In this document: positions 16,495 through 62,580 of the stretch, piece by piece
Position numbering within the stretch: the stretch's first letter is position 1
Layout of the letters: each line of letters opens with the position of its first letter
DNA from: Sphingomonas sp. SORGH_AS_0950
Lineage (GTDB): Bacteria > Pseudomonadota > Alphaproteobacteria > Sphingomonadales > Sphingomonadaceae
Assembly (NCBI RefSeq): GCF_030818415.1
Contig: NZ_JAUTAE010000001.1
Coordinates: 684,501 to 748,500 of the forward strand
DNA: 64,000 bases
Reading direction: 5' to 3'
Translations under genes and position numbers: made by a program
The notes under the pieces: generated by a model
What the model saw: the letters and a program-made list of their open reading frames with translations, nothing else
What the model was told of the DNA's origin: nothing
Database searches by the model: none

Positions 16495-17213
16495 TCGGAA
16501 CTCCTGTCCCGACCGCCCCGCCAGAGGATCACAAGCCCCACGCCCGTCAGGATCGCCAGACCGAACCAGGTCAGCGCATAGGACAGATGGCTGTTGCGGA
16601 AGGTGACGACGGTCAGTCCGCCGACCGGATAGCCGCCCGGATTGGCCGTGGCGTCGGCATCGATGAAATAAGGGGCGACGGGGCCAAGGCGCTTGGCGGC
16701 GGCAATGGCGGCGACGTCGCGCGAATACCAGCGATCCTGCACGGGATCGTTGGAGCGAAGGAAGCCGCCCTTGGGCTCGGTCATCCGGATCAGGCCGGTC
16801 ACCGAAACCGGGTAGGTAGGACGGTCGTGAACGGCGCGTTTTTCCGCCGGAACGAAGCCGCGATTGACCAGCACGGTAAATTGCGGGCCGACCAGCGGGG
16901 TCAGCACCCAATAGCCGGGACCGCGCTCGGTCACCGCCTGAACGAAGGTTTCGCGATCGTTGCGGAAGACACCGCGTGCCGTCACGCGGCGATAGGTATC
17001 GTCGGCATCGGCGACGGGCGGGGCCGCCACCGGGGAGGCATGGAGCCGTGCCTCAACGCGGGCGATCAGGTCCAGCTTCCAGACCCGGCGCTGCAACTGC
17101 CAGACGCCGAGGGAGACGAAGCCCGCGATCAGGGCGATCCCGATCGCGGACAGGATCGCCAGCCCCAGCGGCGAGCGGCCCCGCCGCTCACCGCTTGTGC
17201 CGGCGTCCGTCAT
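16491..17213 (-). CDS. SURF1 family oxidase assembly protein
   Basis: A 240-residue protein with two membrane helices, one near the N-terminus (residues 17-39, containing FVSLGVWQLQRR) and one at the C-terminus (about 210-232). The long periplasmic part contains RRVTARGVFRNDRETFV and WVLTPLVGPQFTVLVNRGFVP, the usual SURF1 signatures. SURF1 proteins help insert haem into haem-copper oxidases. Here it sits between cyoD and regB with one-base (TAATG) and four-base overlaps, so its likely client is the bo3 oxidase encoded upstream. The length is typical for bacteria. Confidence 0.9.
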   Translation of the reverse strand: MTDAGTSGERRGRSPLGLAILSAIGIALIAGFVSLGVWQLQRRVWKLDLIARVEARLHASPVAAPPVADADDTYRRVTARGVFRNDRETFVQAVTERGPGYWVLTPLVGPQFTVLVNRGFVPAEKRAVHDRPTYPVSVTGLIRMTEPKGGFLRSNDPVQDRWYSRDVAAIAAAKRLGPVAPYFIDADATANPGGYPVGGLTVVTFRNSHLSYALTWFGLAILTGVGLVILWRGGRDRSSE

Positions 17214-50910: not shown

Positions 50911-51174
50911 TCAGGCGGCGCGCACGCCATCCGCCTCCAGCAGGTCGGGGCCGAGCAACCGGCCGATGATCGTCACCGACTTGCCGACATGATCGACGGG
51001 CACGCGCGACAGACGTAACTCGAATGTCGCACCGTCATCGCATTGCAGGATGAAGGCGCCGTGCCGCCGCACCAGCCGGCCTGTCAGCGAGTGGGTGGGC
51101 GTGTCCGAAAGGGCGTCGTCGTTCGTCATCATCGGGCCAACGGTGGCGCCCACCTCCAGTTCCCGCAAGGTCAT
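50911..51174 (-). CDS. Small beta-rich protein, possibly DUF5818-like
   Basis: An 87-residue soluble protein. The first 25 residues are a variable lead; SLTGRLVRRHGAFILQCDDG starts a small barrel, continued by ATFELRLSRVPVDHVGKSVTI and GRLLGPDLLEADGVR. This pattern of about 60 residues is close to what I know as DUF5818 in sphingomonads, an OB-like fold, but I cannot confirm it. The ATG overlaps the stop of the diguanylate cyclase (ATGA), so the two are coupled and this protein may be a partner of the cyclase. A second in-frame ATG pair lies 14-15 codons later. Confidence 0.6.
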   Translation of the reverse strand: MTLRELEVGATVGPMMTNDDALSDTPTHSLTGRLVRRHGAFILQCDDGATFELRLSRVPVDHVGKSVTIIGRLLGPDLLEADGVRAA

Positions 51175-54100
51175 CCATCGGCCCTTTCCAGATCGCGGGC
51201 CTGCTCCACCCTGTCGCGGCCGCCCCGCTTGGCGCGGTAGAGCGCTTCGTCCGCGCGGCGCATCAGGTCGCCCGCGATATTGCCCGCCCGCCAATGGGCG
51301 ACCCCGGCGCTCATCGTGACGGGCACCGGGCCATGGTCGGCCATGACCGGAGATTCGGCGATCTGGCGCCGCAGCCGCTCGACGATGGCGGTGGCGATCT
51401 CCAGCCCGGTGTCGGGAAACAGGATCGCGATCTCTTCCCCGCCATAGCGCGCGACGCAGTCCTTCGCGCGCACCGCCCCCTGGATACGTCGCGCCACCTC
51501 GACCAGCACGGCATCGCCGACGCTGTGGCCATGTTCGTCGTTGATCCGCTTGAAATGGTCGAGGTCGAGCAGCGCGAAGGCGAAGCCGCCGCCCGAACGG
51601 CATGCCCGCTCGGCGGCCTGCTCCATTTCGTTCATCAAGGTGCGGCGATTGGCCAGGCCGGTCAGCGGGTCGGTGCTGGCCAGCCGGTCGAGTTGGGCGT
51701 TCGCGACGCGCAGCGCGCTGGTCCGCTCGGCCACGATCGCCTCCAGCACGTCGGCGCGCCGCCGGATCACCGCCGTCACCAGCCAGAAGGCGCCGCCGAT
51801 CGACACCAGCAGCAACAGGCTCAGGCCGATCCGGGCGGGCCAGGTTTCATACCATTGCGGATCGACGGTGATCCGCACCTGTCGCGTCACCGTCCGCGCC
51901 GCCAGCCCCGGCACATGTGCGCTGAGCGTCAGCCAGTAATCGCCCGAGGGCAGGTTGGTATAGATGGCGGTGGCAGGGGTGCCCGCAGGCACCGTCATCC
52001 AGTCGGCATCGAACCCTTCGAGCCGATAGCGATAGCGTATCTCCTCGGGCGCCGCATAATCGGTCAGCGAAAAGCCCAGCCGCAACGTCCGGCCCTGACG
52101 ATCGAGATGCACCACCGGGTCGCGCGCGACCGAGTCGATCGCCAGCAGCCGCCCGTTGATATCCGCCTGGCTGACGATCAACTGGGCGGTATCGCTCCTG
52201 TCCCGCCGTCCCAGCAGCAGATCGGGTTGCAGGACCATCAACCCCTCGGGCGATCCGAACAGCAACGATCCGTCGTTCATGGTGGCCGCCGCACGCTGGT
52301 TGAACGCACGCATCGGCATGCCGTCGCGCTGGCTCATTTCCAGGACATGGAGCGTGGTCGGATCGATGACCGATATCCCGCCCGCGCTCGCCGTCCACAG
52401 CCGACGCCGGGCGTCGGGCGTCAGCGAGGCGACATTGTCGCCCGCCAGCCCCTGCGCCTCGCCGATCGCGCGGAATTTCCAGCCGCCGCGCGTCGTGCGG
52501 CCGAGCGCCACGCCGCCATAGGTGCCGACCCATAATCTCCGTCCGTCGGGCACCATCGACCCGACATAATCCTGCGGCAGGCTAAAGGGATCGTTCGCCC
52601 GATTGGCATAGCAGACGAACCGGCCGCTGCGCGGATCGAACTGCCCGATCCCGCCGGGCGTGGCGACCAGCACCTGGCCATCGGGCCGCGGCAGGATGTT
52701 GATGACCTCGTTATTGGGCAGGCTGCGCGGGTCCGCCGGATCGTGCCGGTACACCGTCACCCGCCCGGTCGCCCGGTCGCGCTTGTACAGTCCCTTATAG
52801 GTGCCGATCAGCAGATCGCGCTTCGTCTCGGCCAGCGAAATGACCGGCAGGTCGCCAAGCTCGGGGATGACGAGATCATGGGTGGCGAGCGTCCGGGGAT
52901 CGATTGCCACGACACCGCGCGCGCCGATCAGGATCGACCCATCCGACGATTCGAGCAGCGCCTTGATATCCTGACCGGCATGATGCCCGGCAAGCGCAAG
53001 GTGGCGGACCTGCCCCGCCGCCCGGTCGAGCCGATCGACCGAGCCGTTGCTGAAGCCCAGCCATATCTGCTGGCGACGATCGACCAGCACGCCCCGGACA
53101 TTGTCATCGGCCAGCGACAGCCGAGGGTCGTGCATCGCCGAACCGATGCGCAGCACGCCGCCCCCCGGCCCCTGGGTCCGCGACGCGCCCAGTTCGGTCG
53201 CGGCCCAGATCCCGCCGCCATCATCCATCGCAAGGGCTCGCACCGTATCCCCGGCCAGCGCCAGCGGATTGCCCGTGTCGTGACGCAGCCCGCTGGCGGC
53301 GAACCCGCGCGCCGGGTCGAGCAGGACGATGCCCATGCCGTCGGTCGCGATCCATATCCGCCCGAGCCGGTCCTCGGCAAAGGCGCGGATCGTCCGGTGC
53401 CCGATCAACGGCGCATCGCTGGTCAGCGTGGGCAGCTGGACGAAATGCCGGGGATCGCCATTCTCGGACAGGTACACGCCATCCGACCCGGTACCGACCC
53501 AAAGCCGCCCCCGGCGGTCGCGCAGGATCGACCAGACATCGCCCGATGGCTTGTGTGCGCCCAGCGGAACATTCGTAAACGGGCTCGTACCCGGCGCACG
53601 CCTCCATAGGCCATGGTCGGAGCCTGCCCACAAGGTGCCGTCGCCGTCGCGGAACACCGCAAAGGCGCCCTGGGGGCGGCCATCGGGCGAGGGTATCGCG
53701 CTATCGGTCATCGGATCGACGCGATCGAGCCTGGCGATATAATGGTGCACGCCGCCATCCGAGCCGATATAGGCGCCGCCCGCCCCGTCCGGCGTGAAGC
53801 TGAAGATGCGGGCTCCCATCGCGCCGTGCGTCGGCTTGAGCCGGATGAACGCGTCCCGTTGCGGGTCGTAGCGGGCCAGGCCACCGACATTGGTGCCGAT
53901 CAGCACGCCCCCGCCCGGCAGCGCCATCAGCGAGCGGACATAATTGTCGGGCAGCGAATGGGGATCGGCCTGGCGCTGCTTGAAGGTCCGCACCCGTTGG
54001 GTCAGGCCGTCATAGCGGGTCAGGCCACCGCGGGTGCCGATCCACATCGTCCCGTCACGCGCGCGCACGACCGCGGTGGTCGTGATATGCGGCAGGCCGA

Positions 54101-54233
54101 TCGCTTCGCCGAGGCTCGCGAACGACGTCCATCGCCATGCCGCCCACGAATCGGCCGCCTCAAGGCGCCCCAGGGGCAGGATCATGACCGAAAGGAACAG
54201 GGCCAGCGCGGCCAGGGGACGGTATGGCTTCAT
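51171..54233 (-). CDS. Two-component-regulator-propeller / Y_Y_Y / GGDEF diguanylate cyclase
   Basis: About 1020 residues. Signal or anchor at residues 1-26 (ALALFLSVMILPLGRLEAA). A large periplasmic beta-propeller follows made of repeats such as DGTMWIGTRGGLTRYDG, GTLWAGSDHGLWRR, GRIWIATDGMGIVL and RRLWVGTYGGVAL. A Y_Y_Y domain (IRYRYRLEGFDADWMTVP) comes next, then one membrane helix and a short coil. The cyclase domain has an intact active site GGEEI (931-935), DLDHFKRINDEHGHSVGD, and an inhibitory site RAKD (922-925) five residues upstream. So c-di-GMP synthesis with product inhibition is expected. This design senses periplasmic ligands, often polysaccharide-derived. The ATG at 54233 is set by the signal peptide. 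Confidence 0.92.
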   Translation of the reverse strand: MKPYRPLAALALFLSVMILPLGRLEAADSWAAWRWTSFASLGEAIGLPHITTTAVVRARDGTMWIGTRGGLTRYDGLTQRVRTFKQRQADPHSLPDNYVRSLMALPGGGVLIGTNVGGLARYDPQRDAFIRLKPTHGAMGARIFSFTPDGAGGAYIGSDGGVHHYIARLDRVDPMTDSAIPSPDGRPQGAFAVFRDGDGTLWAGSDHGLWRRAPGTSPFTNVPLGAHKPSGDVWSILRDRRGRLWVGTGSDGVYLSENGDPRHFVQLPTLTSDAPLIGHRTIRAFAEDRLGRIWIATDGMGIVLLDPARGFAASGLRHDTGNPLALAGDTVRALAMDDGGGIWAATELGASRTQGPGGGVLRIGSAMHDPRLSLADDNVRGVLVDRRQQIWLGFSNGSVDRLDRAAGQVRHLALAGHHAGQDIKALLESSDGSILIGARGVVAIDPRTLATHDLVIPELGDLPVISLAETKRDLLIGTYKGLYKRDRATGRVTVYRHDPADPRSLPNNEVINILPRPDGQVLVATPGGIGQFDPRSGRFVCYANRANDPFSLPQDYVGSMVPDGRRLWVGTYGGVALGRTTRGGWKFRAIGEAQGLAGDNVASLTPDARRRLWTASAGGISVIDPTTLHVLEMSQRDGMPMRAFNQRAAATMNDGSLLFGSPEGLMVLQPDLLLGRRDRSDTAQLIVSQADINGRLLAIDSVARDPVVHLDRQGRTLRLGFSLTDYAAPEEIRYRYRLEGFDADWMTVPAGTPATAIYTNLPSGDYWLTLSAHVPGLAARTVTRQVRITVDPQWYETWPARIGLSLLLLVSIGGAFWLVTAVIRRRADVLEAIVAERTSALRVANAQLDRLASTDPLTGLANRRTLMNEMEQAAERACRSGGGFAFALLDLDHFKRINDEHGHSVGDAVLVEVARRIQGAVRAKDCVARYGGEEIAILFPDTGLEIATAIVERLRRQIAESPVMADHGPVPVTMSAGVAHWRAGNIAGDLMRRADEALYRAKRGGRDRVEQARDLERADG

Positions 54234-54349
54234 AGGCTTATGCTGGGAACCTATAGCAGGCGACCTCATAAAACCGGGTTAATCGCGCCATGCGCCGCGT
54301 GTCGGCCTTTCACGGCGAGCGACGGGATCCGACTTGACGAACCGCCCGC

Positions 54350-54410: not shown

Positions 54411-55520
54411 GTGTCGCTCCAGCCCCCTGCCCCCGACCCCGTCGGCGACAACCGCAAGATCATCCATGTGGATATGGACGCCTTCTATGCGTCGGTCGAA
54501 CAGCGAGACGATCCCGGTCTGCGTGGACGGCCGGTCGCCGTGGGGGGATCGCGCGCGCGGGGCGTGGTGGCGGCGGCCAGTTACGAGGCGCGGGGCTATG
54601 GCGTCCGGTCCGCGATGCCGTCGGTCACCGCGCTGCGCCGCTGTCCCGACCTGGTGTTCGTTCCCCCGCGCTTCGACGTATATCGCAGCGTTTCGCAGCA
54701 GATCCGGGCGATCTTCGCGCGCTATACCGACCAGATCGAGCCGCTGTCGCTGGACGAGGCCTATCTGGACGTCACCAGCGATCGGGCCGGGCTGGGTTCG
54801 GCCACCGCGATCGCCGAGGCGATCCGGGCCGCCATTCGCGAGGAGACCGGGCTGACCGCCTCGGCCGGGGTCAGCTACAACAAGTTCATCGCCAAGCTCG
54901 CCTCCGACCAGAACAAGCCCGATGGCATTTGCATCATCCCTCCGGCGCAAGGACCGGCCTTCGTCGCCGCCCTGCCGGTCAAGCGTTTCCACGGCGTCGG
55001 TCCGGTCACCGCGCGCAAGATGGAGGCGCTGGGCATCCTCACCGGACAGGATCTGCGCGAGCGGCCGCTGGATGTCCTGCAACGGCATTTCGGCAGCTAT
55101 GCCGACTATCTGCACGGTGCGGCGCGTGGCATCGACCACCGCCCGGTCCGCGCCCATCGCGAGGCCAAGTCGGTGGGCGCCGAGCGGACCTTCGAGAACG
55201 ACCTGACCGAACGCGACGCGCTGCGGGCCGCGCTGGAGCGGGTGGTCGAGGCCGCATGGGTCCGGATCGAGCGGAGCGGCGTCGCCGGGCGGACCGTGAC
55301 GATGAAATTGCGATACAGCGACTTCCGTACCATCACCCGCGCCCGCTCGACCGGCCACCCGATCACCGAGCGAGCGCAATTCCTGGCGATCGGTCTCGAC
55401 CTTCTCGACCAGCAATTGCCGCTGGCCGGCGGCGTCCGGCTGTTGGGGCTGACGCTGTCGGGCCTCAACGCGGCGCATGGCGGCGGGGATGGGCCGAGCC
55501 AGGCCGAACTGCCCTTATAG
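54411..55520 (+). CDS. dinB: DNA polymerase IV
   Basis: A 369-residue Y-family translesion polymerase. N-terminal IIHVDMDAFYASVEQRDDP (metal ligands Asp), YEARGYGVRSAMPS, PPRFDVYRSVSQQI, PLSLDEAYLDVT (catalytic Asp-Glu), GVSYNKFIAKLASDQNKPDG and VKRFHGVGPVTARKME (helix-hairpin-helix). The C-terminus ends QAELPL, a probable beta-clamp-binding peptide. Translation begins with GTG at 54411; no strong SD is visible. Length is typical. It performs error-prone synthesis past lesions. It converges with the kinase gene, with eight bases between stops. Confidence 0.96.
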   Translation: MSLQPPAPDPVGDNRKIIHVDMDAFYASVEQRDDPGLRGRPVAVGGSRARGVVAAASYEARGYGVRSAMPSVTALRRCPDLVFVPPRFDVYRSVSQQIRAIFARYTDQIEPLSLDEAYLDVTSDRAGLGSATAIAEAIRAAIREETGLTASAGVSYNKFIAKLASDQNKPDGICIIPPAQGPAFVAALPVKRFHGVGPVTARKMEALGILTGQDLRERPLDVLQRHFGSYADYLHGAARGIDHRPVRAHREAKSVGAERTFENDLTERDALRAALERVVEAAWVRIERSGVAGRTVTMKLRYSDFRTITRARSTGHPITERAQFLAIGLDLLDQQLPLAGGVRLLGLTLSGLNAAHGGGDGPSQAELPL

Positions 55521-55528
55521 GCCTTTGG

Positions 55529-57334
55529 TCACACGGCCCGGTCGGCGTCCGCTTCCGTCTCCTCAGCGGCCTCGAGGACCAGGATCGCAACCGCCCCCAA
55601 TCCTTGCCCATGGCTATGCAGTTCGAGCGATCCACCCATCGCGGCCGTGGAATTGGCGCACCAGTGGAGACCCAGCCCGCCGGATTTCTCGGTCCGGGTG
55701 GAAAAGCCCGACCGGAACAGCTTGGTCGCCAGCGCCGGGTCGAAGCCTTCCCCGTCATCCATGATCCGCACCGTCACCCGGCCACCCTCCGATTGGATGG
55801 TGACGGTGATCGCACCATGGTCGCGCCCGGTCGCGGCGATCGCCTCGATCGCATTGGCGAACAGATTGCCGACCACCTGGCTCAGGATCACCCGATTGGC
55901 CAGCACGGTAAAGGGCCGGGCGGGAAAGGCGAAATGGATCGAGGCGGCCTGCGAATAGCGGGCGATGGTGGCGTTGCGCGCGATGATGTCGGTGACGTCG
56001 CAGCGTTCGCGTGGAGGGCGTTCATGCGCCCTGGCCTGTTGCGCCCCGATGATCTCCAGCGTCTGACGCATCGCATCGCGCCCGATATCGATCCGTGCCC
56101 GCACCGCCTCGCGCGCCTTGGCCTCGGCATCGAGCGCGCCCCTGATGAACGCCACCAGCTTGGTCCGGCGTTCGGGCGCAACGTCCTCCCCCGCCAGTTC
56201 CGCCAAGGCCCGGTCGATCAGCGCGCGATCATAGGCGGGCGACCGATCGCCGCCATGGCTGAGGATGGCGCCGAGCGGGGATAGCGCGTTGCGGACATTG
56301 TGCAGCACCGCCACCGCGCTTTCCGAGCGGCCAAGCGCGAAGCTCTGTATCTCATTCTGTTCGCGCAGGTCCTTCAACTGGCTGAGCATCGCATTGAAAC
56401 TGCGGCCGAGCGAACCGAATTCGTCGTCGCGCCCCTCCCTGTCGTGATAGGGAGAAAGGACGCCCGACGCCTGGACCCGCTGCATATGGCGCTCGACCCG
56501 GCCGAGCGGTGCCAGCACCAGCCATCCCAGCGCACGCCGCAGCATCAGCAGCGTGAAGACCAGGAGCAGGATCGATCCGGCCGTCGCCAACAGGAGAACC
56601 CGACGGCCAAGCAACGTGACCTCACGCGAGATCCGGAACCGCGCCATGCCGACCGCGCGACCATCCAGACCCTGAACCGGAACGGCAATCTCCATGCGCC
56701 GCGTGCCCTTGAACATGGTCCGGTCCGGTCCGGATGCGGGGCCGGTCAGGCGCGCCGTCTTGTGCATTGCGTGGGACAGGTGGGCGGGGGTCAGAATGCG
56801 GGCGACGGCGAGATAGTCGCGTGGTCGTCCCACTATGCCGGTGACGGTGGCGATACCGATGGCGGCGATCCGCCCGCGCAGCGGCAGATAGAAGCTGTTG
56901 GAATCCCGTCCTTCAAGCAGCTGCGAAAGGTCCCTGCGGTTCAGCACATCCGCCAGCGCGGACGCCATGGCGTCCGCCTCGTCCGGATGTCCGGGATCGC
57001 GCCACCGTGCCTTCCACCGCCCATCGGCAGCGGTCCGATAGGCCACACCCTGGATCGGATGATTGGGAAACACATCCGGCACGATACCGGCATGATCGCG
57101 CGCGATCTCCTCGACCCGCTGGGTGATATCGGCCAACAGGGTCTGCGCCCGTTGGCGATAGCCCATGATCGCCTGCTGCTCCAGCCGGTCGAAACTGGGT
57201 GAGATCACGAGCGCCAGGAAGGTCGCGACCGCTACCGCACCGCCGATCCCGGTCAGCGTCAGCATCGCGACCATCGTATTGCGCAGCGATCGGCGACGCG
57301 ACCATTCGCCCAACCACCGGATCGCGGTACGCAT
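55529..57334 (-). CDS. Membrane sensor kinase with CHASE4-like domain and atypical H-box
   Basis: A 601-residue protein: TM1 (about 20-44), a periplasmic region of 200 residues whose start (SFDRLEQQAIMGYRQRAQTLLADI) resembles CHASE4, TM2 (about 246-266) and HAMP (APLGRVERHMQRVQASG). A coil leads to SAVAVLHNVRNALSPLGAIL with His345, then a normal ATPase domain (NLFANAIEAI, DDGEGFD, GGLGLHWCANSTAAM). The H-box HNVRNAL lacks the acidic residue after His seen in HExxTP kinases. It starts five bases after the REC-GGDEF-EAL gene and is probably its partner, phosphorylating Asp84 of that protein. This pairing is inference from proximity. Confidence 0.88.
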   Translation of the reverse strand: MRTAIRWLGEWSRRRSLRNTMVAMLTLTGIGGAVAVATFLALVISPSFDRLEQQAIMGYRQRAQTLLADITQRVEEIARDHAGIVPDVFPNHPIQGVAYRTAADGRWKARWRDPGHPDEADAMASALADVLNRRDLSQLLEGRDSNSFYLPLRGRIAAIGIATVTGIVGRPRDYLAVARILTPAHLSHAMHKTARLTGPASGPDRTMFKGTRRMEIAVPVQGLDGRAVGMARFRISREVTLLGRRVLLLATAGSILLLVFTLLMLRRALGWLVLAPLGRVERHMQRVQASGVLSPYHDREGRDDEFGSLGRSFNAMLSQLKDLREQNEIQSFALGRSESAVAVLHNVRNALSPLGAILSHGGDRSPAYDRALIDRALAELAGEDVAPERRTKLVAFIRGALDAEAKAREAVRARIDIGRDAMRQTLEIIGAQQARAHERPPRERCDVTDIIARNATIARYSQAASIHFAFPARPFTVLANRVILSQVVGNLFANAIEAIAATGRDHGAITVTIQSEGGRVTVRIMDDGEGFDPALATKLFRSGFSTRTEKSGGLGLHWCANSTAAMGGSLELHSHGQGLGAVAILVLEAAEETEADADRAV

Positions 57335-57339
57335 CAGGG

Positions 57340-59229
57340 TCAGCCTTGCACGCCGGCCATCGGGGGTTGCGTAGGCGGCATACCGTCCAGCGACATGTAA
57401 CGCTGCACCGCCAGCGCCCGCGCCTGTTCGGCGGGAATCGGGTGGGAGAAGAGATACCCCTGCAGGTGACTGGCCCCTGCGACGCGCAGCGCCTGGGCCT
57501 GCGCCTCGGTTTCGACCCCCTCGGCGATCACGCCCAACCCAAGGGCGCGGCCGAGATGGATGATCGAGTGGACGATCGCGTCGGACTCGCGCTCACGCCC
57601 CATGCCGTCGATGAAGCTGCGATCGATCTTCAGACAGTCGAGCGCGAATTTGCGGATATTGTACAGGCTGGAATAACCCGTGCCGAAATCGTCGAGAGCG
57701 ATGCGGAAGCCCAGGTCGCGCAGTTCGCACAGCGTCTCGGCCGCGCGCTCGGCATCGTCGAAGATCGCCGTCTCGGTAATCTCGATCTGGACCCGGCCGG
57801 GGGCGACCCCCGCCCTCTGCACGCTGTCGAGGATATGCGCGACGAAATGCGAACGGCGGAACTGGATCGGGCTGAAATTGACCGAAACATATTGATCGGG
57901 CCAGTGGCGCAACTCGGCCAGCGCATGGTCGAGCACCCAGTCGCCCAGTTCGTGAATGAGATTGCTCTCCTCGGCGATGGGGATGAAGATGGTTGGGCTG
58001 ACCGCGCCATGTTCGACGGTGTCCCACCGGACCAGCGCCTCGAACCCGACAATGTCGAGATCGGCGCGCCCGACGATCGGCTGGAAGGCCAGGGTCAGCT
58101 CGTCACGGGCGAGCGCCTGAGTCAGCCCGGCCTCGACACCGCGACGCAGGCGAATGCCGTCGTCCATCTGCGCATCGAACAGCCGGACGACGCCGCGCCC
58201 GGCGCGCTTGGCCTCGTTCAGCGCCATGTCCGCCTGGCGGATCAGGTCGATCGAATCGCCATCGGTGCCGCCCTGCCGAACCACCAGTCCGCATGACGCG
58301 CCGCAGCGCACCGAATGCCCCAATATGCTGAAGGTGGTCGCACAGGCGGTCACGATCCGCTCGCACGCGGCGACGGCCACCTCATGATGCGCGCTGTCGA
58401 ACAGGATGCCGAACTCGTCGCCGCCCAGCCGCGCGATCAGCGCACCGGTGGGTGCGGCCTGGTTCAGCGTGGCATACACCTCGCGGATCAGTTCGTCGCC
58501 CGCCAGATGGCCGAGTGTGTCGTTGACCAGCTTGAACCGGTCGAGGTCCAGCATCGCCGTCACGAACCGGCCGCCCCGGCGACCCCGCTCGTCCAGCGCG
58601 CGCAGAAAGGCGACGCGATTGGGCGCGTCGGTCAAGGCATCATGCAGCGCCAGATGCATGGCGCGGCTCTCATTGGCCTCCAGCTCGGCGGTCTTTTCCT
58701 CCAGCGCGGCGACCTGCGCGGCCAGCAGAACCCGCGTCGCCGCCAGCTCGCGCTCATTCTGCCAGCGACGGCACAGCGCCAGCGCGGTCTGCCAGATCTC
58801 GGCGACCTCGAACGGCTTGGCGATATAGAAGATCTTGTCGGCGGGCCCGGCGACCTTGCTGATCTCGACCGGCGAAAAGTCGGAATAGCCGGTGACGATC
58901 ACCAGATGAATATCGGGGTCCAGCGCCCGGATCCGCCGTGCCGTCTCGCGTCCGTCGAACCCCGGCGGCATCCGGATGTCGATGAAGGCGACGGCAAAGG
59001 GCGTGCCGTCGGCCAGCGCCCGCTCGACCGCCGCGACGGCATCCTGGCCCTGGCGATAATGGTGACGCTCGAACACCGCATCGCCTTCGTCATCCGATGC
59101 TTGGGGCTTGCCGAACAGGTCGGCGGCCATGGCGTCGAGCATCGCGTCCTGCGCCAGACCCTGGCCGGAAAAGCACAATGCATAGCTGTCGTGGATTGCC
59201 GGTTCGTCGTCGACGATCAGTATGCGCAT
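57340..59229 (-). CDS. Response regulator with GGDEF and EAL domains
   Basis: A 629-residue cytoplasmic protein. The receiver (residues 1-150) has DDE at 7-9, phospho-acceptor Asp84 (AVAFIDIRMPPG) and Lys138; it carries an insert of about 40 residues (25-65) against a standard receiver. A coil (about 155-195) leads to a GGDEF domain with intact GGDEF (269-273) but no RxxD inhibitory site, then an EAL domain with EAL (397-399), VNFSPIQFR, EITE, DDFGTGYSSL, KIDRSFI and AEGVET all conserved. Both cyclase and phosphodiesterase activity are possible, with one probably dominant. The ATG lies inside a strong RNA hairpin, so translation may be controlled. Confidence 0.94.
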   Translation of the reverse strand: MRILIVDDEPAIHDSYALCFSGQGLAQDAMLDAMAADLFGKPQASDDEGDAVFERHHYRQGQDAVAAVERALADGTPFAVAFIDIRMPPGFDGRETARRIRALDPDIHLVIVTGYSDFSPVEISKVAGPADKIFYIAKPFEVAEIWQTALALCRRWQNERELAATRVLLAAQVAALEEKTAELEANESRAMHLALHDALTDAPNRVAFLRALDERGRRGGRFVTAMLDLDRFKLVNDTLGHLAGDELIREVYATLNQAAPTGALIARLGGDEFGILFDSAHHEVAVAACERIVTACATTFSILGHSVRCGASCGLVVRQGGTDGDSIDLIRQADMALNEAKRAGRGVVRLFDAQMDDGIRLRRGVEAGLTQALARDELTLAFQPIVGRADLDIVGFEALVRWDTVEHGAVSPTIFIPIAEESNLIHELGDWVLDHALAELRHWPDQYVSVNFSPIQFRRSHFVAHILDSVQRAGVAPGRVQIEITETAIFDDAERAAETLCELRDLGFRIALDDFGTGYSSLYNIRKFALDCLKIDRSFIDGMGRERESDAIVHSIIHLGRALGLGVIAEGVETEAQAQALRVAGASHLQGYLFSHPIPAEQARALAVQRYMSLDGMPPTQPPMAGVQG

Positions 59230-59286
59230 CCGGTCACCATGAATCCATCGATCCCCGTTATATGGATCAATGGTAACCGGATACGC
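59224..59286 (-). promoter_or_regulatory. RNA hairpin enclosing the start codon of the REC-GGDEF-EAL gene
   Basis: Arms 59224-59248 and 59262-59286 (25 nt each) with a 13-nt loop. On the minus-strand transcript 21 pairs are Watson-Crick, three are G-U and one is a mismatch, so 24 of 25 positions pair. On the plus strand the same positions would be A-C or other mismatches. The ATG (59227-59229) and the bases before it lie in the 3' arm. It starts 36 bases downstream of glmS. Confidence 0.65.
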
Positions 59287-59321
59287 TTAAAGTGACGTAA
59301 ATGGTCAGGTCTGGCTCCCCG

Positions 59322-61145
59322 TCACTCGACGGTGACGCTCTTGGCCAGGTTGCGGGGCTGGTCGACATCGGTGCCCTTGGCGACCGCGACATGATAGGCG
59401 AGCAGCTGGACCGGCACCGCATAGACGATCGGCGCGATCAGCGGGTGGACCTTGGGCATGGTGATGGTCGCGATACAGCCCTCGCCCGCCGCCTCGATCC
59501 CGTCATAGTCGGAGATCAGCACGACCTTGCCGCCGCGCGCCTGGACCTCCTGCATGTTGGAGACGGTCTTCTCGAACAGCGGGCCGGACGGCGCGATGAC
59601 GATCACGGGAACATGCTCGTCGATCAGCGCGATCGGGCCGTGCTTCATTTCGCCCGCCGCATAGCCTTCGGCATGGATGTAGCTGATTTCCTTGAGCTTC
59701 AGCGCGCCTTCCAGCGCCAGCGGATAGTCGGTGCCGCGGCCCAGATACAGCACATCGCGCGCGCCGGCGACGGTGCCCGCCATGCCTTCGATCGCCTCGT
59801 CATAGGCCAGCGCGCCGTTGATCGCGGCGGGTGCTTCGGCCAGATGGCGGACGATCTGCCGTTCCTCGTCGGCGGACAGACGCCCCTTGGCCTTGGCGAG
59901 ATTGGCGGCGAGTGCGGCCAGCACGCTCAGCTGGCAGGTAAAGGCCTTGGTCGAGGCGACGCCGATCTCCGGCCCGGCATGGGTCGGGAGCAGCAGGTCG
60001 GCCTCGCGCGCCATCGAGCTGGTCGGCACGTTGACGACGGCGGCGATCGTCTGCCCCTCGGCCTTGGCGTGGCGGAGCGCGGCGAGCGTGTCGGCGGTTT
60101 CACCCGACTGGCTGATGACGATCATCAGCCCGCCCGGCTCCATCACCGGCGCACGGTAGCGGAATTCGGAGGCGACATCGAGGTCGACCGGCACGCGCGC
60201 GAACTGCTCGAACCAGTATTTCGCGACCATGCCCGCATAGAAGCTGGTGCCGCATGCGACGATGGTGACGCGCTTGATCCCTGACAGGTCGAATTCGGGA
60301 ATGGGAAGCGCGATCTTGCCCTCAAGCCGTTGAAGATACGAACGAAGCGTCTGGGCGACGACGATCGGCTGCTCGTAAATCTCCTTCTGCATGAAGTGGC
60401 GGTGATTGCCCTTGTCGATCAGCGCGCCGGTCACGCCCGAGATCGTGACGGGCCGCTCGACCGGATTGTTGTCGCGGTCATAGACCTGCGCGCCCTCGCG
60501 GGTGCAGACGACCCAATCGCCTTCGTCGAGATAGGCGATGCGCTGGGTGAGCGGGGCCAGCGCCAGCGCGTCCGATCCCAGATAGGTTTCGTCATCGCCA
60601 TATCCCACGACCAGCGGCGAGCCCAGTCGCGCGCCGATCAGCAGATCGGGCTGGTCGCGAAACAGGATGGCGAGCGCGAAGGCACCGTGCAGGCGCGGCA
60701 GCACCTCGCGGACCGCCGCAACCGGATCGAGCCCCTGTTCGACCTTCTCGCTGACCAGATGGGCGACGACCTCGGTGTCGGTCTCGCTGGTGAAGACGTG
60801 GCCACGACCGATCAGTTCGTCGCGCAACGCCTTGAAATTCTCGATGATTCCATTGTGGACGACCGCGACATGATCGGTCGCATGGGGGTGTGCGTTGTTG
60901 GTGGTGGGGCCGCCATGCGTCGCCCAGCGGGTATGGGCGATACCGATAGTGCCGGGCAGCGGATGCGCGGCAAGCTCGCGCGCCAGATTGACCAGCTTGC
61001 CCGATGCGCGACGCCGCTCGATCGAACCCTGGTCGATCGTCGCGATACCCGCCGAGTCATATCCGCGATATTCCAGGCGACGCAGCCCGTCGAGCAGCCG
61101 CTCGGCAACGTCGTCTCCGCCCAGAATTCCTACGATACCGCACAT
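59322..61145 (-). CDS. glmS: Glutamine--fructose-6-phosphate aminotransferase (isomerising)
   Basis: A 607-residue enzyme that makes glucosamine-6-phosphate, the entry to peptidoglycan and LPS amino sugars. The glutaminase domain starts with Cys2 after Met removal (MCGIVGILGG), then RRLEYRGYDSAGIA and HTRWATHGGPTTNNAHPH. Two SIS isomerase domains follow (SGIKRVTIVACGTSFYAG, ISQSGETADTLAAL, EGALKLKEISYIHAEGYAAGE); the end is PRNLAKSVTVE, typical of GlmS. No glmS ribozyme is expected outside Firmicutes and none is seen. It starts seven bases after glmU and is co-transcribed with it. Confidence 0.97.
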   Translation of the reverse strand: MCGIVGILGGDDVAERLLDGLRRLEYRGYDSAGIATIDQGSIERRRASGKLVNLARELAAHPLPGTIGIAHTRWATHGGPTTNNAHPHATDHVAVVHNGIIENFKALRDELIGRGHVFTSETDTEVVAHLVSEKVEQGLDPVAAVREVLPRLHGAFALAILFRDQPDLLIGARLGSPLVVGYGDDETYLGSDALALAPLTQRIAYLDEGDWVVCTREGAQVYDRDNNPVERPVTISGVTGALIDKGNHRHFMQKEIYEQPIVVAQTLRSYLQRLEGKIALPIPEFDLSGIKRVTIVACGTSFYAGMVAKYWFEQFARVPVDLDVASEFRYRAPVMEPGGLMIVISQSGETADTLAALRHAKAEGQTIAAVVNVPTSSMAREADLLLPTHAGPEIGVASTKAFTCQLSVLAALAANLAKAKGRLSADEERQIVRHLAEAPAAINGALAYDEAIEGMAGTVAGARDVLYLGRGTDYPLALEGALKLKEISYIHAEGYAAGEMKHGPIALIDEHVPVIVIAPSGPLFEKTVSNMQEVQARGGKVVLISDYDGIEAAGEGCIATITMPKVHPLIAPIVYAVPVQLLAYHVAVAKGTDVDQPRNLAKSVTVE

Positions 61146-61152
61146 AAGCCCT

Positions 61153-62517
61153 TTACTCCCCAGCCTTTTTCGCGGCCTTCCTGGCCGTCATCATCTCTCT
61201 GAAACGCTTGGCCCAACCCGCCTTGGTCTGCCGCTCCGCCCGGACCAGCGCCAGCGCGTCAGCCTCGACATCGCTCGTCACGACCGAGCCCGCGCCGACG
61301 ATCGCGCCCGCACCCACCTGGACCGGGGCGACCAGCGCCGAGTTGGAACCGATGAACGCGCCCTCGCCGATCACGGTGCGATATTTGAGGAAGCCGTCAT
61401 AATTGCAGGTGATCGTACCCGCGCCGATATTGGCGTTCGCGCCGACCTCGGCATCGCCCAGATAGGTCAGGTGGTTCGCCTTGGCACCGGGGCCGAGCAC
61501 CGCCTTCTTCATCTCGACGAAATTGCCGACCCGTGCGCCCTCGCGCACATCGGCACCGGGGCGGAGGCGTGCATAGGGGCCGATATCGGCGCCGCTCGCC
61601 ACGGTCGCGCCCTCCAGATGGCTGAAGGCATGGATGGTCACGCCGTCCGCCACATGGACGCCGGGGCCGAAGACGACATGGGGTTCGATCACCACGTCAC
61701 GGCCGATCCGGGTGTCATGGGCGAACCACACCGTCTCCGGCGCGATCAGCGTGGCGCCGTCGGCCATCGCACGGGCGCGGCGACGGACCTGCCAGTCGCC
61801 CTCCACCACCGCCAGCTCGGCGCGGCTGTTGACGCCCGCCACTTCCCCGGCGCTCGTCTCGATCACCGCCGAAGGACGTCCGTCGCCGGCCGCCAGCATG
61901 ACGATATCGGGCAGATAATATTCGCCCGCCGCATTGTCGTTGCCGACCCGGTCGAGCAGGCCGAACAGATCCTCCGAACGGACCGCCATGAGGCCCGAAT
62001 TGCAAAGGGTTACGGCACGCTCTTCGGCACTGGCATCCTTGAACTCGACCATGCGGTCGATGCGTCCGTCGGCATCGGCGATCACCCGGCCATAGGCGGC
62101 GGGGTCGGCGGGTCGGAAGCCGAGCACCACCGCCGCAGGACTGTCCGCCTCGGCCAGCCGATCGATCATCCGGCGCATCGTCGCGGTCTCGACCAGCGGC
62201 ACGTCGCCATACAGGATCAGCACATCGCCCATAAAGCCCGACAGCGCGTCGCGCGCCTGCGCCACCGCATGCGCCGTACCGAGCTGCTCGGCCTGAAGCG
62301 CGGTACGCACGCCCAGCGGCGTCACGGCCGCCTCGACCTGCTCGCGCCCGGCGCCCGTCACCACGACCATGCGTTCGGGCGAGAGCGCCCCGACGCTGTC
62401 GATCAGGTGGAGCAGCATCGGCCGCCCGGCGATCGGGTGAAGGACCTTGTGCAGGTCGGACTTCATGCGGGTGCCCTTGCCCGCGGCAAGGATGATGGCG
62501 GCGACTGGTCTCGTCAT
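61153..62517 (-). CDS. glmU: Bifunctional GlcN-1-P acetyltransferase / GlcNAc-1-P uridylyltransferase
   Basis: About 454 residues. The N-terminal pyrophosphorylase has AAIILAAGKGTRMKSDLHKVLHPIAGRPM, LGTAHAVAQAR and LYGDVPLV. The C-terminal left-handed helix carries acetyltransferase residues (GPYARLRPGADVREGARVGNFVEMKKA, NHLTYLGDAEVGANANIGAGTITCNYDG). It makes UDP-GlcNAc from the GlmS product after GlmM. The start at 62517 gives MTRPVAAIILAAG, like other family members; an ATG 18 bases upstream (62535) is an alternative. AGG is about ten bases before 62517. It diverges from gph, and the next gene glmS follows after seven bases. Confidence 0.95.
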   Translation of the reverse strand: MTRPVAAIILAAGKGTRMKSDLHKVLHPIAGRPMLLHLIDSVGALSPERMVVVTGAGREQVEAAVTPLGVRTALQAEQLGTAHAVAQARDALSGFMGDVLILYGDVPLVETATMRRMIDRLAEADSPAAVVLGFRPADPAAYGRVIADADGRIDRMVEFKDASAEERAVTLCNSGLMAVRSEDLFGLLDRVGNDNAAGEYYLPDIVMLAAGDGRPSAVIETSAGEVAGVNSRAELAVVEGDWQVRRRARAMADGATLIAPETVWFAHDTRIGRDVVIEPHVVFGPGVHVADGVTIHAFSHLEGATVASGADIGPYARLRPGADVREGARVGNFVEMKKAVLGPGAKANHLTYLGDAEVGANANIGAGTITCNYDGFLKYRTVIGEGAFIGSNSALVAPVQVGAGAIVGAGSVVTSDVEADALALVRAERQTKAGWAKRFREMMTARKAAKKAGE

Positions 62518-62580
62518 GATGGTTGCGCCTGCCATGGATTTCTTGCCAAAGCCATACCGAGACTTGGCGCAGGATGGCTC

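Follow-up and report, generated by a model that had tools for sequence, protein, structure and literature searches.

The window is a 64,000-nucleotide stretch of the genome of Sphingomonas sp. SORGH_AS_0950 (contig NZ_JAUTAE010000001.1, positions 684,501 to 748,500). It encodes a REC-GGDEF-EAL protein downstream of glmU and glmS, and an RNA hairpin is predicted over the start of that gene. A HAMP/HATPase sensor kinase gene follows and presumably belongs to the same operon. The region just past the kinase gene (51171-54269 and 54411-55520) encodes a second GGDEF protein (propeller plus Y_Y_Y) and a DNA polymerase of the impB/mucB/samB type. The features of the locus are as follows.

55529..57334, minus strand: HAMP/HATPase sensor kinase gene, 5 nt behind the REC-GGDEF-EAL gene
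57340..59229, minus strand: REC-GGDEF-EAL protein gene, with its start covered by the hairpin
59224..59286, minus strand: whole hairpin, 24 of 25 positions paired, three of them G-U; the form expected in RNA reading in from glmS
59230..59280, minus strand: core helix, in which columns 22 to 38 (59280-59264) are paired with -1 to -17 (59230-59246)
59261..59265, minus strand: predicted transcription start, column 39 (59263 ± 2), inferred from sequence, at the loop edge
59270..59275, minus strand: TACCAT, presumed -10, within the 5′ arm of the hairpin
59287..59301, minus strand: CtrA-like box TTTACG-N5-TTAA (TTTA-N7-TTAA), conserved in the genus; presumed site where an activator acts on the gene's own promoter
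59322..61145, minus strand: glmS, co-directional and upstream, presumed source of read-through
61153-62535: glmU, which precedes glmS

Hairpin structure and rarity

The hairpin has a 5′ arm at 59286-59262, a 13-nt loop at 59261-59249, and a 3′ arm at 59248-59224, all on the minus strand. The one unpaired position of the stem is a U-C mismatch on that strand. The 3′ arm holds the ATG (59229-59227) of the REC-GGDEF-EAL gene. Refolding bore out the coordinates and the pairing that the initial annotation had given from the sequence of this locus. That annotation had also set the element 36 bases past glmS, and the measured distance from the glmS stop codon is 35 to 36 nt.

Both strands of the window were scanned for stems of 25 positions with loops of 3 to 40 nt. 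A stem with 24 pairs was reached once, at 59224-59286, and all stems with 23 pairs were shifted registers of this hairpin. Twelve first-order Markov resamples of the window contained no stem with at least 23 pairs and 14 stems with 22. The folding z score was -3.7, and 0 of 200 shuffles folded equally well. The start region of the REC-GGDEF-EAL gene had an opening cost of 24.6 kcal/mol. This was the highest value among the 34 long open reading frames scored in the window (mean, 11.7 kcal/mol; standard deviation, 4.6), whose starts were assigned mechanically. When the leader was compared with its own 4.39-Mb genome, it gave, besides itself, only chance matches of 14 to 20 nt and no second copy.

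Two other repeats were seen in the window. The sole other stem with 22 of 25 pairs lies at 17154-17208 on the minus strand (loop of 3 to 5 nt; chance scan). A short inverted repeat with 20-nt arms that are 85% complementary and a 7-nt loop lies at 2020-2066.

Relatives and their upstream genes

Relatives were retrieved by protein searches of the genus that covered 151 genomes at first and 295 thereafter; the later search applied a strict cutoff and was aimed at the nearest relatives. Public genome contigs were also searched. In a family-wide search of 199 genomes, the only hits above the cutoff outside the genus came from a pair of genomes in a sister genus (g72). The box was absent from the 150 nt read by eye in these two (L179 and L180).

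Leaders were fetched from 141 loci, leaving out hits that lay at contig ends, were partial, or matched only at paralogue level, together with a few near duplicates. The first pass located 118 of the 141 starts. It gave 97 distinct leaders once 17 duplicates and 4 leaders whose box position holds no TTAA were set aside. Three of these 4 (L078, L079, and L081) have a GTAACC variant, and the fourth is L120. A laxer cutoff located 139 of the 141 starts, 8 of them without a TTAA box, and added 17 further distinct leaders. Twelve of these additions were in the accessibility range, and 5 of the 17 had only a poor box.

The accessibility set contained 75 of the 97 leaders (box-to-start distance, 58 to 95 nt). 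The start-column set contained 90 of the 97 (box score of at least 9); because the TAC columns contribute to this score, TAC is overcounted in the set. A 59-leader alignment provides a less selected TAC count than the 90-leader set.

The near clade comprises 15 distinct leaders with 76 to 80% protein identity. In each of them, glmS ends 74 to 111 nt upstream of the start. Across the 97 leaders, a co-directional upstream gene was identified in 80 (within 200 nt in 77 of them) and none was identified in 17. The identified genes were a ROK kinase (58 leaders), glmS (19), and an S9 peptidase (3). We take the first and last of these to be ROK-type sugar kinase and S9 peptidase genes, names assigned from the sequence and not drawn from a family search. 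Five of the 17 leaders without an identified neighbor (L122, L125, L128, L129, and L132) have, as read by eye, what we take to be a divergent CitE-like gene. The ROK-type kinase gene lies directly upstream in many relatives (L013, L031, L039, L041, and others), and in several it lies between glmS and the REC-GGDEF-EAL gene. It is absent from the locus in the clade of the window, where glmS is the direct neighbor.

Covariation of the helix

The 15 near-clade leaders were placed in a fixed register with column 22 opposite -1. The 25-position stem was paired in 320 of 375 cells (85.3%), and sliding the register by 1 to 3 columns gave 33 to 45%. Its core helix (columns 22 to 38; 17 pairs), which ends just before the ATG, was paired in 235 of 255 cells (92%). 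RNAalifold draws this core unaided, with 18 pairs, six of which show double changes. Column 34 is paired in 15/15 leaders and uses five pair types. Arms swapped between species within the near clade paired in 86% of core cells, against the 92% of cognate arms. The sequence of the loop and inner stem varies between leaders.

The initial annotation had proposed a covariation search in relatives, and compensatory changes were found. Double-change cells numbered 25, against 10.7 (standard deviation, 2.8) in 500 shuffles, none of which was as high. The covariation score was 0.306, against 0.195 in the shuffles, again with 0 of 500 as high. Two weaker measures were the number of pairs with a double change (7 versus 5.0; 21 of 500 shuffles) and the number of further pair types (29 versus 24.8; 9 of 500 shuffles).

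The mismatch and wobble cells of the core were 46 sense-strand G-U, 6 A-C (equal to G-U on the other strand), and 14 other mismatches. In columns 31 to 38, away from the promoter T's, there were 20 G-U and 5 A-C cells. Changes in columns 22 to 40 were also mapped onto a tree of the coding sequences; the counts come from one reconstruction among several equal ones. Single changes affected paired positions 39 times; 28 kept the pair and 11 broke it, with 8.2 expected to be kept under random mutation. Of the single changes at unpaired positions, 20 formed a pair and 9 did not. Of the 10 double changes, 3 replaced one pair by another, 5 created a pair, and 2 destroyed one. Fixed promoter T's that face the purine-rich ribosome-binding arm may account for some of the G-U excess and some of the tree count.

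By this comparative evidence, a sense-strand RNA helix that ends just before the start codon is under selection, because its core is kept by compensatory change in the 15 near-clade leaders. Selection on the RNA strand had been proposed from the single sequence, and both the covariation and the strand bias of the G-U cells support it. The ATG and its upstream region had likewise been placed in the stem. This is correct for the present genome, but only 2 of 15 leaders (the window and L010) keep the outer six pairs, with the ATG, intact. We rejected these outer pairs as a conserved feature.

Putative promoter in the 5′ arm

The 59 distinct leaders of the less selected set were aligned on the box. 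TTAA was present in 59 of 59, as expected for the column used to find the box. TAC stood at a fixed spacing from the box (T in 54, A in 53, and C in 53 of 59 leaders). It was not used to find the box, and it is also present where other genes lie upstream. The near-clade -10 reads TACCAT in 13 of 15 leaders and TACCGT in 2. The presumed -10 matches TATAAT at only four of six positions, and a plain sigma-70 scan of 58800-59500 found no promoter.

We placed the transcription start at column 39 because the conserved A was read as -11. Column 39 lies 11 nt past this A, and A is its commonest base. It was found there in 56 of the 89 leaders long enough (one leader was too short), namely in 53 of 74 outside the near clade versus 3 of 15 inside.

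The box resembles a CtrA site. One description of the CtrA full site gives TTAA-N7-TTAA, near -35 when CtrA activates (PMC6180460). The box of the window (TTTA-N7-TTAA) contains seven of these eight bases. The genome encodes CtrA, which scored 419 bits against a cutoff of 350. The CckA-ChpT-CtrA relay has been reported as conserved in Sphingomonadales (PMC2877005).

TTWA-N7-TTAAC was found at 6 sites in the genome versus 15 for the reversed control and was not enriched. We rejected the CtrA box as a common genomic motif on these counts, and CtrA is a lead only, because the motif is not enriched. TTTACS-N5-TTAACC had no site in the window's own genome. The full block TTWA-N7-TTAA-N10-TTAC was found once in the genome, at the hairpin locus. 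Five relatives contained 13 TTTAC-N6-TTAACC sites versus 2 in the control. Four of the 13 are the box of the REC-GGDEF-EAL gene itself, and the other nine are without TAC at promoter spacing. The same box recurs in several relatives (L165, L168, and L171) upstream of what we take to be a lytic-transglycosylase-like gene, possibly another CtrA target.

From the alignment, the conserved TTTA-N7-TTAA and TAC block looks like the REC-GGDEF-EAL gene's own promoter. The mRNA from this promoter would not carry the 5′ arm, because the predicted start near 59263 is at the loop. The initial annotation had counted a transcription start in the loop, which removes one arm, against the element. The comparative promoter evidence predicts such a start. 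The hairpin does not become meaningless by this; its likely substrate then becomes read-through RNA.

Predicted accessibility of the ribosome-binding site

The opening cost was computed from predicted folds for the region from -16 to +3, and each leader was compared with 25 chimeras carrying the 5′ segments of other species. The mean cost in the 15 near-clade leaders was 24.7 kcal/mol for the read-through RNA, 14.4 kcal/mol for the chimeras, and 6.3 kcal/mol for RNA beginning at column 39. The read-through cost exceeded the own-mRNA cost by >3 in all 15. In the predicted folds of these leaders, the ribosome-binding region or the start codon is buried in the helix of the longer transcript. The earlier claim that the translation start is hidden thus stands as a prediction, given the 24.7 versus 6.3 kcal/mol. 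Sliding the start along the sequence lowered the mean cost from 25 kcal/mol (at or before column 16) to 6.8 kcal/mol or less (column 36 onward). A start that uses TAC as its -10 would free the ribosome-binding site, within an uncertainty of two or three bases.

Leaders elsewhere in the genus

The 60 leaders outside the near clade had mean costs of 13.6 kcal/mol for read-through RNA, 7.7 kcal/mol for own mRNA, and 11.8 kcal/mol for chimeras, a weak effect on average. A strong excess over the chimeras (fraction of ≤0.08) was found in 12 of 15 near-clade leaders. It was not found in 56 of 72 leaders outside the clade. We rejected a genus-wide hairpin as strong as that of the near clade; elsewhere it is mostly weak. 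RNA duplex energies were also compared with those of segments from other species in 96 leaders (L035 was too short for a valid energy). By one comparison, 15 of the 81 leaders outside the clade had their cognate segment in the top 5%; by the other, 6 of 81 did.

Cognate hairpins of other sequence were found in several of these leaders, and in them the ribosome-binding site pairs with bases immediately preceding the predicted start. They are L013, L014, L015, L074, and L143; L042; and L123, L127, and L131. The last three contain a very strong hairpin that covers the ribosome-binding site behind an S9 peptidase-like gene, and the first half of their promoter box is degraded. The hairpin type of L123 and L127 is CCCCCTCG / CGAGGGGG. 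The hairpin of these three leaders is apparently an independent case.

Outside the clade, a strong excess was found in 14 of 46 leaders with a co-directional gene within 320 nt versus 2 of 26 without one identified (Fisher one-sided P, 0.022; two-sided P, 0.037; the counts ignore kinship). Before the 12 leaders were added, the counts were 14 of 45 versus 0 of 15 (Fisher P, 0.0096; rank test P, 0.076), and the additions weakened the result. L106, in the group without a neighbor, seems to have a co-directional gene. The link between a co-directional neighbor and a strong hairpin is suggestive only.

Alternative explanations

The hairpin may instead be a translational switch within a normal leader. 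The main mRNA would then start upstream of it, and an RNA, a protein, temperature, or a metabolite would open it. A helix that covers the start region and covaries agrees with such a switch, but the 5′ arm contains a -10-like TAC, and transcription from it would leave the ribosome-binding site free. There also seems to be no conserved ligand pocket, because the sequences of the loop and inner arm vary. An Rfam scan of 58900-59500 gave four weak matches, all far below the gathering score. We rejected a ligand switch or a known RNA family as the best reading on the Rfam result and the variable loop and inner stem. The initial annotation had suggested a switch opened by RNA, protein, or metabolite; these results and the apparent -10 in the 5′ arm leave that suggestion unsupported, and we consider a switch of this kind unlikely. 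The hairpin may also serve mainly as a 3′ end of the glmU-glmS mRNA, that is, as a processing, Rho-linked, or exonuclease-blocking stem, with the cover of the start codon secondary. Its position 35 nt past glmS fits this role, as does an opening cost that is highest where glmS adjoins (24.7 versus 13.6 kcal/mol in the 60 other leaders). Against it, a terminator scan of 58800-59500 found no G+C-rich stem with a U-run and no terminator-like site, and an intrinsic terminator of glmS was rejected for that region. The 3′ arm also stays in a fixed register with the ATG in the 15 leaders, with distances of 74 to 111 nt from the glmS stop to the start. Some leaders behind ROK-kinase and S9-peptidase genes also pair the ribosome-binding site with sequence immediately before the predicted start. 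The initial annotation had raised this 3′ end while remarking that no U-run follows; the missing U-run was confirmed, and the role itself appears rather improbable.

An inverted repeat can also act as DNA. The hairpin overlaps the presumed -10 and start site, as a promoter operator or cruciform might, and a quasi-palindrome could be kept by template-switch mutation without selection. There is evidently no common operator, however, because the arm sequences differ between species while the pairing is kept. The G-U cells favor the transcribed strand by 46 to 6 (20 to 5 in columns 31 to 38), and the genome matches of the leader besides itself are at chance level. A DNA operator or dispersed repeat was rejected on the strand-biased G-U cells and on the single genome copy. 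We regard these DNA-level readings as very improbable.

Proposed read-through shield

We lean toward reading the hairpin as a gene e-type (phage T4) read-through shield that guards the c-di-GMP gene from glmU-glmS transcription. This reading builds on what the sequence itself shows: a helix that covaries, a conserved block, an overlap of this block with the arm, and the predicted accessibilities. The co-directional genes upstream of most leaders (80 of 97) and the association of strong hairpins with such genes also count in its favor. The rarity of A at column 39 in the near clade, the poor -10, the unenriched CtrA motif, and the weak effect elsewhere in the genus count against it. Transcripts of glmU-glmS that run into the REC-GGDEF-EAL gene would carry both arms and fold. 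In the folded read-through RNA, the ribosome-binding region would be buried, as would the ATG in this genome, and the gene would not be translated from it. The gene's presumed own promoter (the CtrA-like box and the TAC-type -10) overlaps the 5′ arm, so that its -10 appears to be built into the arm DNA. Transcripts from this promoter would begin at the loop edge without the 5′ arm and would be translated. The output of the c-di-GMP enzyme would then follow its own promoter and not the housekeeping transcription of glmUS.

Published accounts of gene e (lysozyme) of phage T4 describe a start that is hidden on transcripts from upstream promoters. Short transcripts, which lack the 5′ strand and are translated, come from a promoter placed within the DNA that encodes this strand; I-TevI, segB, and Aeh1 mobE have been described as similarly arranged (PMC3014915, PMC2988022). 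As far as these accounts describe the phage gene, the Sphingomonas locus resembles it in a predicted helix that covers the start on the long RNA, and it may also have its own promoter within the arm. Unlike gene e, it is a regulatory gene on a bacterial chromosome, and its presumed promoter is CtrA-like where that of the phage gene is a late promoter. The hairpin appears to work like that of gene e, with no homology suggested. It is filed as such, and not as a homologous member, because its predicted anatomy matches that of gene e; the Sphingomonas case is known from sequence. It may be a variant of the gene e-type arrangement that is new in being on a bacterial chromosome. A literature search within the scope of one library found no paper that combines Sphingomonas, GGDEF, and glmS.

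Read-through RNA also folds over the start region in the transposase genes of IS10/Tn10 and IS50 and in lacI-lacZ, where the native transcript starts inside. Unlike IS10/Tn10 and IS50, the Sphingomonas gene has a housekeeping neighbor and not random insertion sites, and it encodes a c-di-GMP enzyme and not a transposase. Riboswitches and RNA thermometers likewise have a helix that covers the start region. The Sphingomonas hairpin differs from them in that no conserved sensor part was seen and its own mRNA is predicted to be without one arm.

Bacterial genes are closely spaced and terminators leak, and the independence of a signaling gene from a housekeeping neighbor is a practical question. 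The hairpin is a compact candidate for RNA-level insulation that has evolutionary support. If the read-through shield is real, a timing device of phage T4 has its counterpart at a chromosomal c-di-GMP gene. A wider role is possible but doubtful, as a general Sphingomonas insulation device for packed genes. In such a device, the -10 and discriminator would be complementary to the gene's own ribosome-binding region, incoming transcripts would silence the gene, and its own transcript would be free. It would have been rebuilt with different sequences behind glmS, the ROK kinase, and the S9 peptidase. A promoter -10 that is complementary to the ribosome-binding site may provide a signature for wider searching.
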